Positions 2,568-13,556 of a stretch of DNA of 32,670 nt are shown piece after piece. Position numbers and translations under genes: made by a program. Every line of letters starts with the position of its first letter. Position 1 is the stretch's first letter. The notes under the pieces are model-generated. The model was not told the DNA's origin, did not search any database, and saw only the letters and a program-made list of their open reading frames with translations. Source of the stretch: a virus. The stretch is taken from positions 1 through 32,670 of the IMG/VR virus record IMGVR_UViG_3300022413_000031, one strand, 5' to 3'.

Positions 2568-2941
2568 CTGTCGCAGAGACACAGCACGCAACGACATGCG
2601 CGATCATGACCAAGCTGATCGACAGGATGTACGCCGATCTTGTCAAGTCGCAGGGAGACCACAAGTCCTTACTGGCGCAGCACCGCGCCGCCCGGCAGGA
2701 GGTGACACACCACGCAGGCCTGGTCATCGCCCTACGTAAGCAGCTGGATGAATTGAGCACACAGTACGACACCCTGCTGGAGCACTGCGAAGAGGAGATA
2801 TGGGAGGCCCGCAAGCCTCTGATAGCGGGGGACAGTGCGCCACCGCCACCAACGCCTTGCTGGACACCATCGACAGGGTCCCCTGCCTTGTTCGAAGTGC
2901 AGCCGTCGACTGCACCATACACTCTACCTTCAGTCGAATAA
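2564..2941 (+). CDS. Predicted coiled-coil protein of unknown function with a proline-rich tail
   Basis: A 125-residue protein starting in an ATGA overlap with the previous gene, with AGGAG ten bases upstream. Residues about 15-85 are helical and heptad-like (LIDRMYADLVKSQ, then LRKQLDELSTQYDTLLEHCE), which suggests a coiled coil. From about residue 90 the character changes to a Pro/Ser/Thr-rich tail (GDSAPPPPTPCWTPSTG). That tail is encoded by DNA resembling the start of the polymerase gene about 157 bases downstream but read in a different frame, so it looks like a recently acquired C-terminus, or a sign that the original gene end was lost. I know no family for it. Its position implies expression with the replication genes. 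Confidence 0.55.
   Translation: MTVAETQHATTCAIMTKLIDRMYADLVKSQGDHKSLLAQHRAARQEVTHHAGLVIALRKQLDELSTQYDTLLEHCEEEIWEARKPLIAGDSAPPPPTPCWTPSTGSPALFEVQPSTAPYTLPSVE
2851..2928 (+). repeat. Diverged partial duplication of the DNA polymerase gene 5' end
   Basis: These 78 bases align without gaps to 3008-3085, the codons for about residues 11-36 of the DNA polymerase. By hand count about 60 of 78 positions are identical. Read in frame 2851, this copy encodes LLDTIDRVPCLV followed, after five residues, by VDCTIHST; the polymerase has LLDTLDSVHCLV and later DGTIHST. The frame used by the surrounding small gene is different, so the copy is not translated as polymerase there. Frame 2851 stays open to a TGA at 2974-2976, just before the polymerase ATG at 2978. 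Confidence 0.8.
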
Positions 2942-2977
2942 AACTTCACACAACGAACACTCAAGAGAGATATTGAT

Positions 2978-4852
2978 ATGGTTCGTATGGTATTTGACAT
3001 CGAGACCAACGGCTTGCTGGACACCCTCGATAGTGTCCACTGCTTGGTCATCAAGGCTGTCGACGACGGCACCATCCACTCTACCTACAATGGCGGCTAT
3101 AAGGACATCGACGACGGACTGGCCATACTCTCCAAGGCTACGGAGATCATCGGCCACAACATCCTAGGCTTCGATCTCCCTGCCCTCGAGGAGGTGTATG
3201 GGTGGAAGCCATCGCCTGGCACGAAGGTGACCGACACTATGGTACTGACCAGGCTGCTATGGCCCGACATCAAGAACAAGGATGCTAGGCGTATCAAACA
3301 GGGGAAGCTGCCTGGCAACATGCTCGGCCGCCACTCCCTCGAGGCGTTCGGCCACCGTCTGGGGCGCTGGAAGGGGGACTACGCCAAGATCATGAAGGAC
3401 GCAGGCATCGACCCTTGGGCTGCATGGTCAGAGAAAATGCAGGAGTATTGTGAGCAGGACGTCGAAGTCACCCACGCCTTGTGGGAGGCTTGCATGGCAC
3501 GAGCCAAGGCCTTCTCACAGGAGAGCCTCGATCTGGAGCATGCAGTCGCCAACATCATCATCCGGCAGGAGCGCAGGGGCTTTGCCTTCAATGAGTGCGC
3601 CGCTCAGCAACTCTACGCCGACCTAGTGGGGCGCCACAATGACTTAGCGCAGGAACTTAGGGACACCTTCGGGAGCTGGACAGTCAAGACACCTTTCCTC
3701 CCCAAGCGGGACAATAAGACCCTAGGCTATAAGAAGGGCGTCCTGACCCATAAGATCAAAGAGATTGAGTTCAATCCAGATAGTCGCCACCACATCGCCA
3801 ATAGGCTCAAAGTTATGTGTGGCTGGAAGCCCAAAGTGTTCACCCCTGGGGGAGAGCCGAAGGTGGACGACAAGGTGCTGACTACGATCGACTACCCTGA
3901 GGCCCAGGGGATCGCTGAGTACCTAATGCTAACGAAGCGCATCGCCATGCTGAGGGACGGCAGCCAGGGCCTGCTGCGGAAGGTGAAGAACGGCCGCATC
4001 CATGGCCGTGTCAATCCCAATGGAGCAGTCACCGGCCGTATGACACACAGCTCCCCTAACATCAACATCCCTTCCAATACTGCCCCTTACGGGGTGGAGT
4101 GTCGGGCGCTGTTCGAGAGCGGGGAGGGTTACAAACTGGTGGGCGCAGATGCCGACGCACTAGAACTATGCTGCTTAGCGGGCTATATGGCGAGGCACGA
4201 CGAAGGCGCTTACATCAAGGTAGTCTTGGAAGGCAATAAGGCTGATGGCACTGACATCCATTCCGTCAATGCCCGTGCTCTGGGGCTGGGGGCCACATCA
4301 GAGTACACTGTCGACGGCCGCACACTTACAGGGCGGGACATCGCGAAGACGTGGTTCTACGCCTTCATCTACGGTGCTGGTGATAGTAAGCTGCGGGACA
4401 TCCTAGGGAAGGAACAGGCTAAGCGCCTGCAGGGCTCAGGCCGCAAGGTCTTCCTAACTAACCTGCCAGCCTTGAAGGTGCTGATTGAACAGTGCAAGGA
4501 CAAGGCTAAGAACTACGGCGCTCTGCGGGGGCTCGACGGCCGGCGGCTCTATGTCCGTCACCTTCATGCCTCCCTGAATACGCTACTGCAGGGGGCTGGG
4601 GCGATCATCATGAAGAAAGCACTGGTGATCCTGGACGAGGACCTACAGGAGCGGGGGCTGGTCGCTGGTGAGGAATATGAGTTCGTCGCCAACGTCCATG
4701 ATGAATGGCAGATTGAAGTGCGTCCATCTTGGACATCAACAGTCGGGCCGATGGCCGCCGACGCAATCAGAAAGGCTGGCGAGAGTTATGAGTTCCAGTG
4801 CCCCTTGTCGGGGTCGTACAAAGTCGGAGAGAATTGGTCGGAGACACACTAA
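2978..4852 (+). CDS. DNA polymerase, family A with 3'-5' exonuclease (T7 gp5-like)
   Basis: A 624-residue replicative polymerase. The exonuclease domain keeps its acidic residues: Asp7 and Glu9 in FDIETNG, Asp66 in NILGFDLPAL and Asp161 in YCEQDVEVTH. The polymerase domain has motif A with Asp391 and Glu396 (GADADALEL), motif B with Arg453, Lys457 and Tyr461 (RDIAKTWFYAFIYGAG) and motif C with His574-Asp575-Glu576 (NVHDEW). T7 gp5 is 704 residues. Most of the difference falls at about residues 230-265, just before EFNPDSRHHI, where T7 carries its thioredoxin-binding insertion; here only a short basic stretch remains. This suggests that processivity does not depend on host thioredoxin in the T7 way (inference). 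AGAGAG lies upstream of the start. The next gene overlaps the stop. Confidence 0.97.
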   Translation: MVRMVFDIETNGLLDTLDSVHCLVIKAVDDGTIHSTYNGGYKDIDDGLAILSKATEIIGHNILGFDLPALEEVYGWKPSPGTKVTDTMVLTRLLWPDIKNKDARRIKQGKLPGNMLGRHSLEAFGHRLGRWKGDYAKIMKDAGIDPWAAWSEKMQEYCEQDVEVTHALWEACMARAKAFSQESLDLEHAVANIIIRQERRGFAFNECAAQQLYADLVGRHNDLAQELRDTFGSWTVKTPFLPKRDNKTLGYKKGVLTHKIKEIEFNPDSRHHIANRLKVMCGWKPKVFTPGGEPKVDDKVLTTIDYPEAQGIAEYLMLTKRIAMLRDGSQGLLRKVKNGRIHGRVNPNGAVTGRMTHSSPNINIPSNTAPYGVECRALFESGEGYKLVGADADALELCCLAGYMARHDEGAYIKVVLEGNKADGTDIHSVNARALGLGATSEYTVDGRTLTGRDIAKTWFYAFIYGAGDSKLRDILGKEQAKRLQGSGRKVFLTNLPALKVLIEQCKDKAKNYGALRGLDGRRLYVRHLHASLNTLLQGAGAIIMKKALVILDEDLQERGLVAGEEYEFVANVHDEWQIEVRPSWTSTVGPMAADAIRKAGESYEFQCPLSGSYKVGENWSETH

Positions 4853-9943: not shown

Positions 9944-9985
9944 GGTGGGGGCTGGCTGCTGCCGCTCCTCAGCGCTGCCCCCACC
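9944..9985 (+). terminator. GC-rich stem-loop before the lysis genes, possible terminator
   Basis: GGTGGGGGC (9944-9952) and GCCCCCACC (9977-9985) form a perfect nine-base-pair stem around a 24-base loop. No run of T follows, so it may weaken or process transcripts rather than stop them. It occupies much of the 127-base gap between the putative structural gene and the endolysin gene, whose ribosome-binding site starts just after it. Confidence 0.4.
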
Positions 9986-10013
9986 ACCACCTATCCAAAG
10001 AAGGAGTTTTTGC

Positions 10014-10685
10014 ATGAACAGAGCCCTATTTTTATCCCTATGCCGATCCCAAGTATTCAACGGCAGGCTGACGGCAGAAATTATTAAGGGTCTCGGCGCC
10101 ATCCTCGACGCCTTTGATAGACACCACGTCACAGACAGAGAAATGCAGGCCTATATTCTGGCGACTGCCCAGTGGGAGACTGCCCACAAAATGTGGCCCA
10201 TCAGAGAGTACGGCAGGGGGCAGGGAAGGCCGTATGGCAAGACAGACCCAGTCACAGGGCAATCCTACTACGGCAGGGGGTTCGTTCAACTGACGTGGAA
10301 ACGCAATTATAAGACCATGGGTGACCTGTTAGGGGTTGACCTCGTTGGGCAGCCCGACCAGGCCCTCGAACTCCATCTTGCCGCTGACATACTTGTCATT
10401 GGCATGAGAGACGGCCTGTTCGCCCCGAAGTCCGGCAAGCTGTCCAAGTACCTTGGCAAATCCCTTGATTGGATTGGCGCCAGGAGAACTGTCAACGGCA
10501 CTGACAAGGCCATTGAGATAGCCGCGATTGCCAGGCTCTTCCACGCCATCCTACAAAAATCATACTCGGCTGAACGCATGATCGTTATAGAGAGGCCACC
10601 GTCCTCCCGGCCTGTTCGTGAAAAGGTAACTATCGCCTCCCTCCTGATCAAACTGTTCAGGTATCTCTTATCAAAAAGGAAATGA
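10014..10685 (+). CDS. Endolysin, glycoside hydrolase family 19 (chitinase-like)
   Basis: A 223-residue muralytic enzyme. The start was set at ATG 10014 because AAGGAG lies 6-11 bases upstream; the open frame extends to 9945 through a non-coding-like stretch. GH19 features visible are AQWETAHKMWPIREYG at about residues 52-67, with Glu55 and Glu65 as candidate catalytic acids, and YYGRGFVQLTWKRNY at 85-99, the family signature. Phage GH19 enzymes cleave the sugar backbone of peptidoglycan. There is no signal peptide, so export should depend on the holin-like proteins encoded next. The last 20 residues are hydrophobic and basic (SLLIKLFRYLLSKRK) and might touch the membrane. It presumably replaces T7 gp3.5 amidase, which is absent from the replication block. 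Confidence 0.9.
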   Translation: MNRALFLSLCRSQVFNGRLTAEIIKGLGAILDAFDRHHVTDREMQAYILATAQWETAHKMWPIREYGRGQGRPYGKTDPVTGQSYYGRGFVQLTWKRNYKTMGDLLGVDLVGQPDQALELHLAADILVIGMRDGLFAPKSGKLSKYLGKSLDWIGARRTVNGTDKAIEIAAIARLFHAILQKSYSAERMIVIERPPSSRPVREKVTIASLLIKLFRYLLSKRK

Positions 10686-12056: not shown

Positions 12057-13556
12057 ATGGGAACAGAGAGACAACCGCTCAATTCTGTGATCACGTCCAC
12101 TAACCTGAGTAGCGCCACGGTCGCATTATTGGACGACGATCCAGATAGCCCTGGCGGCGATTGGGTTACTGCCGACGATGACAAATCAGCCGGCGTGCTT
12201 GTTGTGGGGTTCCCCACCCCCACTGGGAACCCTACAACCGGCGCTGGTGTTCAAGAATTTAAGATATACACACGGCTGACCGTAAACGGCAATGCGTGTT
12301 CGTATAACATCTACCTATCTGAGGCAGGCACCCGCCGGAATGGCGGCACCGCTATTGCCTCAGGCTCCGTTACCTCCACTACGGGGCAACTGATCACAGC
12401 TACGTGGAACGCCTCTTTACTCAGCACAGCCGATGGTTCGGATGTTGAGCTTGATGCCGCCTTTGGATTTGTTGGCGGCGGACCGTCTTCAAGAACCGCT
12501 GTCGAAGTGGACGCTGTTGAGTGGAACGTCACCTATGACGCCGCCCAGATCACCGGCACCCTAGCTGCCACCGAAAGCTTCACAGACACAGTTGCGATCA
12601 CCGCTGACGCTGACGCTGACGCTGTCCTTGCCCATACTGAGGCAGCTGACGCATTCGCCATCACTGCCGACGCTGACGCTGACGCCACCCTAGCGCACAC
12701 CGAGGCGGCGGACGTATTTGCTATCGCTGCTGGTGTTGAGTACGACGCCACCTTAGGGGCCACCGAGGGCTTCACAGATACGGTGGCCATTACTGCTGAG
12801 ATGGCTCCCGCAGACGCTGTCCTTGCTATCACAGAGCCCGTTGACGTGTTCGCGATTACCGCTGACGCTGACGCAGGCGCTGTCCTGGCCGGTACAGAAA
12901 CTGTTGATGTATTTGCCATCACTGCTGACGCTGACGCTGACGCAGCCCTAACAGCGACAGATAGCCCCGACGTGTTCGCCTTCACCGCCGACGCGGATGC
13001 AGACGCTGTCCTTGCTATCACAGAGCCCGTTGACGTGTTTGCCTTCACCGCGACCCTGACAGACGGCGCCTCTGCTTCCTTTGCTATCACAGAGCCCTTT
13101 ACAGACACATTCGCCATCACTGCTGACGCTGACGCAGCTGCCACTCTAGGTGCTGTTGAGGCTCCAGACGTGTTTGCCATCACTGCTGGTGTTGATGCCG
13201 ACGCTACCATGTCCGCAACTGAGGGCTTCACAGATACGGCGGCCATCACTGCCGACGCTGACGCTGACGCTACCATGGGCGCTGTCGAAGGCTTCATAGA
13301 CACACTCCTAGTTGTTGTTGACGTGGACGTAGGTGCCGTCCTGGGTGCCGTTGAGGGCCCAGACGTGTTCGCCGTAACATCCAACATCGAGGCAGCTGCC
13401 ACTCTAGGTGCTGTTGAGGCTCCAGACGTGGTCTTCATAAACGTTGTGGAAACTGTCGAAGAAGACACAAGCACCCTACTACGTAAGCTCACGCTCTCTA
13501 ACACAGAGTTTCCCCTGCAACACGCGCTACAGGACCTCCCTGGGCGATCACCGTAA
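12057..13556 (+). CDS. Large acidic repeat protein, putative virion surface protein
   Basis: A 499-residue protein with AAAGGGG about 11 bases upstream. Residues 1-160 look like a beta-sandwich virion domain (ATVALLDDDPDSPGG, VQEFKIYTRLTVNGNACSYN, then VDAVEWNVTY). Residues about 167-465 are some fourteen tandem units of 21-23 residues of the type VLAITEPVDVFAITADADAD. No lysine or arginine occurs across the repeats, so the region is extremely acidic, and many units contain DADAD runs that could bind calcium (inference). A short basic C-terminus follows (LLRKLTLSNTEFPLQ). Placement before the capsid gene suggests a head fibre, decoration or adhesin. Similar Ala/Thr/Asp repeats occur in uncharacterised phage proteins. 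Confidence 0.68.
   Translation: MGTERQPLNSVITSTNLSSATVALLDDDPDSPGGDWVTADDDKSAGVLVVGFPTPTGNPTTGAGVQEFKIYTRLTVNGNACSYNIYLSEAGTRRNGGTAIASGSVTSTTGQLITATWNASLLSTADGSDVELDAAFGFVGGGPSSRTAVEVDAVEWNVTYDAAQITGTLAATESFTDTVAITADADADAVLAHTEAADAFAITADADADATLAHTEAADVFAIAAGVEYDATLGATEGFTDTVAITAEMAPADAVLAITEPVDVFAITADADAGAVLAGTETVDVFAITADADADAALTATDSPDVFAFTADADADAVLAITEPVDVFAFTATLTDGASASFAITEPFTDTFAITADADAAATLGAVEAPDVFAITAGVDADATMSATEGFTDTAAITADADADATMGAVEGFIDTLLVVVDVDVGAVLGAVEGPDVFAVTSNIEAAATLGAVEAPDVVFINVVETVEEDTSTLLRKLTLSNTEFPLQHALQDLPGRSP
12555..13451 (+). repeat. In-frame tandem repeat tract of about 63-69 bp units
   Basis: About fourteen units encode the consensus A-x-L-x-x-T-E-x-x-D-x-F-A-I-T-A-D-A-D-A-D. 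Units begin near residues 167, 189, 210, 231, 254, 275, 296, 317, 338, 361, 383, 405, 427 and 447. Some copies share long stretches of DNA (for instance the units at about 12816 and 13005 both read GCTGTCCTTGCTATCACAGA), showing recent copying. Smaller GCTGAC hexamer runs inside units change the number of Asp-Ala pairs in frame. Confidence 0.85.

Follow-up and report, generated by a model that had tools for sequence, protein, structure and literature searches.

We analysed a stretch of 32,670 nucleotides from a virus (IMG/VR record IMGVR_UViG_3300022413_000031, positions 1 to 32,670; hereafter the window), in which a segment from the start of the DNA polymerase gene occurs a second time, in diverged form, just upstream of that gene. 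The main finding of this study is that the upstream segment is probably the product of an old within-genome duplication of the phage's own polymerase start, which later decayed, and that the frame of a neighbouring small gene reads it, giving that gene a C-terminal tail that would be neutral or nearly so.

The repeat and its genomic setting

The window is that of a T7-like phage, with genes in the order endonuclease (69-569, identified through its DNA similarity to annotated relatives), primase/helicase (phrog_239), polymerase (phrog_17, PF00476), 5'-3' exonuclease (phrog_107) and portal (head-tail adaptor), and onward head assembly protein, major head protein, internal virion protein and large terminase. 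The repeat sits between the genes for the primase/helicase and the family A DNA polymerase. The former, which is T7 gp4-like (794-2434, + strand; phrog_239, E 1e-171), is overlapped at its end by a small gene with an inferred start codon (2403-2567, +) and a weak phmmer match (E 0.0034) to one related phage (L003). The latter, which is T7 gp5-like and 624 aa long (2978-4852, +; PF00476, E 8e-40; phrog_17, E 1e-131), shares 46-49% amino-acid identity with the polymerases of the cultured relatives Rhizobium phage Pasto, Mesorhizobium phage Lo5R7ANS and Pseudomonas phage LUZ100. The interval between helicase and polymerase is a short gap in many relatives and holds at least one small gene, of no fixed kind, in others. 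Elsewhere in the window, an endolysin-like gene (9945-10685, phrog_181) separates the genes for head assembly and for the major head protein; the amidase gene of Lo5R7ANS is placed similarly, following the one for capsid assembly. An open reading frame of 499 codons (12057-13556), located upstream of the gene for the major head protein, has many degenerate internal repeats (12554-13430, ~67-98% alike) and no PHROG match, and may encode a repetitive virion surface protein.

The direct repeat consists of 92 nt at 2841-2932 (+), a decayed duplicate with neither the start codon nor the body of the polymerase, which aligns without gaps to 2998-3089 (+) in the intact polymerase gene at a spacing of 157, with 70/92 identities (76%). 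The source segment, codons 7-38, covers the region of the 3'-5' exonuclease motif I (DIETNGLLDT...); read in the polymerase frame, the copy gives TNALLDTIDRVPCLVRSAAVDCTIHSTF and the polymerase TNGLLDTLDSVHCLVIKAVDDGTIHSTY. The original prediction had placed the resemblance at 2851-2928 and 3008-3085, with about 60 of 78 bases alike and no gaps, and exactly 60/78 are identical there, within a longer match that begins slightly further left, at about 2841, and runs to about 2932, shortly ahead of the small gene's stop codon (2939-2941). When the region upstream of the polymerase was aligned locally, with gaps allowed, to the first 323 bases of the gene, the score was 84; 1000 dinucleotide-preserving shuffles averaged 20 (sd 2.3) and reached at most 32, which places the observed score about 28 sd above their mean, and self-BLAST of the repeat gave E = 3e-13. 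When the whole window was compared with itself, this pair was the sole strong repeat among the matches listed, the repeat-rich frame at 12057-13556 aside. A second assembly (L001), which may or may not be an independent sample, is identical to the window at the repeat and differs from it at two places only, 1182 and 5956. At the first of these a missing A shifts the frame of the helicase gene, most likely through an error of sequencing or assembly.

Divergence of the copy and its origin

Comparison with related polymerases indicates which of the two segments has changed. At the 22 differing sites, 26 well-aligned relatives carry the polymerase base 327 times, the copy base 88 times and neither 157 times. 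Because these relatives were picked by likeness to the polymerase segment, a second tally used 102 relatives whose positions were anchored through protein alignment; this gave 1101 polymerase bases, 330 copy bases and 682 of neither, every one of the 102 being nearer to the polymerase than to the copy at these sites. At 2846, 2855 and 2882, which are invariant second-codon positions, the copy stands alone against all 26 relatives, and the substitutions replace the Glu of the exonuclease motif by Ala, the Gly of Asn-Gly by Ala and a His by Pro, the first two losses (Glu9 and Gly12) being read from base counts in the 26 relatives together with the alignment of copy and polymerase. The Asp and Glu of exonuclease motif I are catalytic residues in T7 DNA polymerase. 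Following the majority of relatives, some 16-17 changes are assigned to the copy and about three to the polymerase (2874, 2877 and 2887), where the commonest base of the family is kept in the copy and not in the polymerase; the relatives are distant (~53% amino-acid identity at best), and third-position states are consequently saturated. Since its private changes hit family-invariant positions and all 102 relatives side with the polymerase, the copy, to judge from these base states, has evolved free of polymerase constraint. Its family-typical bases at 2874, 2877 and 2887 imply that the split is not recent, and they make a close unsampled sister polymerase a possible donor; by the same comparisons, the duplication event is not very recent.

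Aligned to its own polymerase the copy scores 84, no other fetched locus gives it more than 37, and the polymerase segment itself scores up to 57 with other loci. Neither a degenerate shared-motif pattern in IMG/VR nor the fetched loci yielded a polymerase that resembles the copy more than the resident one does, and 50,697 phage records held no significant match to the copy. The import candidates that the motif search returned have ~37-42% amino-acid identity to the polymerase of the window, and none is close to the copy. Genome contigs contained no close relative of the polymerase N-terminus, and plasmids no match to 2435-2977. An upstream copy of the polymerase start was absent from 85/85 related loci (best score 31); it was thus rejected as a common feature of relatives, and the event looks private to the lineage of this phage. 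Duplication of the phage's own gene is the simpler account and is favoured because every other polymerase found lies far from the copy and because the private changes of the copy fall at (nearly) invariant positions of the family. Of the two origins first proposed, partial duplication and recombination with a related polymerase, the former is therefore retained and the latter loses ground, since nothing elsewhere approaches the copy.

We picture the following course of events. About 92 bp near the 5' end of the polymerase gene (codons 7-38) would have been duplicated in direct orientation 157 bp upstream, landing inside a small gene that lies between those for helicase and polymerase, or at its end. 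Judging only by the size, direct orientation and 157-base spacing of the repeat, the mechanism was probably slippage or template switching in the course of replication. With neither start nor body of the polymerase, the copy would have had no polymerase function, and hence it drifted. The frame of the small gene enters it in the +1 frame, which was already free of stops, and meets a TAA shortly past the repeat, giving a tail of 33 residues on what was presumably an older, shorter gene.

The strongest competing explanation, which we nonetheless consider unlikely, is that illegitimate recombination with a sister phage left one polymerase start upstream of a complete polymerase gene, the remnant then decaying. 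Such an import or replacement would be consistent with the 24% divergence between the copies and with the few family-typical bases that the copy keeps and the polymerase has lost (2874, 2877 and 2887), as well as with an ATG preceded by AGGAG at 2800 in the polymerase frame of the copy and with the wide variation among relatives in the genes between helicase and polymerase. However, the copy has no near known polymerase, most of the differences resemble post-duplication decay, and a leftover gene start should show traces of both the exonuclease motif and the true start, which the copy lacks.

The small gene and its tail

The small gene that runs into the duplicate (2564-2941) encodes 125 aa, and its start overlaps the stop of the preceding gene as ATGA, with AGGAGA upstream. 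As predicted, it crosses the copy in a frame other than that of the polymerase and ends in a Pro/Ser/Thr-rich C-terminus, PPPPTPCWTPSTGSPALFEVQPSTAPYTLPSVE. Its first 92 codons (2564-2839, +), which are coiled-coil-like, have a frame score of +0.275 per codon and a GC3 of 0.77, a phage-like codon usage, whereas the last 33 codons with the stop (2840-2941, +), in the +1 frame relative to that of the polymerase, score -0.352 per codon with a GC3 of 0.48. For comparison, the intact polymerase scores +0.558 per codon and the old polymerase frame in the copy -0.019 (GC3 0.72). By these measures, the tail frame looks non-coding, the first 92 codons and the polymerase look coding, and the old polymerase frame in the copy falls in between. 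The changes between the two copies were also sorted by their effect in the tail frame, in which three codon differences are silent and 16/19 alter the amino acid, with 4/22 changes at the third position; these tests use 22 changes only, numbers small enough to leave room for weak selection. In the intact polymerase segment, the +1 frame is likewise open for more than 50 codons (ORF 2835-3167) and also Pro/Ser/Thr-rich, so that the openness and composition of the tail came with the DNA and need no selection. Homologues of the 125-aa protein were found neither in viral contigs, by peptide patterns, nor in phage records or the fetched loci, and Pfam, PHROGs and NCBIfam gave nothing beyond weak sub-threshold matches. 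On the sequence evidence, the tail is likely an acquired one.

It is quite improbable that overprinting of the duplicate has given the small protein a tail with a selected function, for example as a flexible linker or as a peptide for binding a replication protein. The frame does stay open up to a stop just past the repeat, and tails rich in Pro/Ser/Thr, like this one, often serve as functional linkers. Nevertheless, its codon usage is unlike that of the phage's genes, most of its changed codons alter the amino acid with few changes at the third position, and the parental DNA was open in this frame already. The idea that a new protein tail is being made by overprinting thus survives as far as the open frame through the copy is concerned; that the tail is selected finds no such backing, given the codon usage and the pattern of change. 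The least credible explanation, chance resemblance or an assembly artefact, could appeal to there being only two stretches, in a virus contig, but it can safely be set aside given an alignment score far beyond 1000 shuffles, a 24% divergence that rules out assembly duplication, which would not give 76% identity, and the agreement of the second contig (L001) with the window.

Other features of the duplicate were noted in passing. Its old polymerase frame lies within a predicted open frame of 58 codons (2800-2976, +), with an ATG at 2800, AGGAG just upstream and a stop at 2974-2976, for which no family match was found. This stop is one base before the ATG of the polymerase, an arrangement that could couple translation. 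A transcript of 2780-3010, comprising the duplicate and the ribosome-binding site of the polymerase, is predicted to fold better than most shuffles (z -2.3), as a leader structure possibly would. The duplicate was also considered as a regulatory element and rejected as such, there being no terminator and a single promoter-like site at about the chance rate.

Relation to known systems

The duplicate can be set beside two known phenomena. The first is partial gene duplication with decay, as in the pseudogene fragments of tailed phages, with which it shares being a short, directly repeated piece of an adjacent gene that lacks both start and body and has lost residues invariant in the family. The similarity is beyond chance, the closest gene is that of the own genome and the copy shows release from the constraint on its parent. 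It differs in that the fragment is embedded in the open frame of an adjacent small gene, whose C-terminus it forms. The second is overprinting, outlined in a review (PMC8227390) as the emergence of new protein sequence when older coding DNA is read in an alternative frame, and a bacterial case of it has been presented (PMC4683798); the literature search returned only general papers on overprinting and new genes. The likeness here is that, in the small protein, residues 93-125 are encoded by DNA of known coding origin, derived from the polymerase, that is read in an alternative frame, open at 2840-2941. The difference is that overprinting here affects a redundant, decayed copy, which is therefore free of double coding constraint, and that the new frame gave no sign of selection. 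As for the setting, the T7-like replication modules of the Autographiviridae Pasto (MT708545), Lo5R7ANS (KM199771) and LUZ100 (OP329100) have the same order of endonuclease I, primase/helicase, polymerase and exonuclease as the window, with small genes in between. Unlike the window, they have neither an upstream copy of the polymerase start nor a homologue of the 125-aa protein.

The evidence supports no consequence for phage function. Were the tail translated and useful, it would clearly capture how a phage protein acquires a segment through duplication plus overprinting, but we give little credence to the view that it is a recently made, translated and useful segment, drawn from a spare copy of the polymerase start that is read out of frame. 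If our preferred reading is correct, namely a decayed duplicate of the phage's own gene with a tail that is neutral or nearly so, this phage would provide a well-marked case in which a short duplication extends a neighbouring reading frame with sequence never selected as protein, and would thereby illustrate a passive origin for the ORFan tails of small phage proteins.
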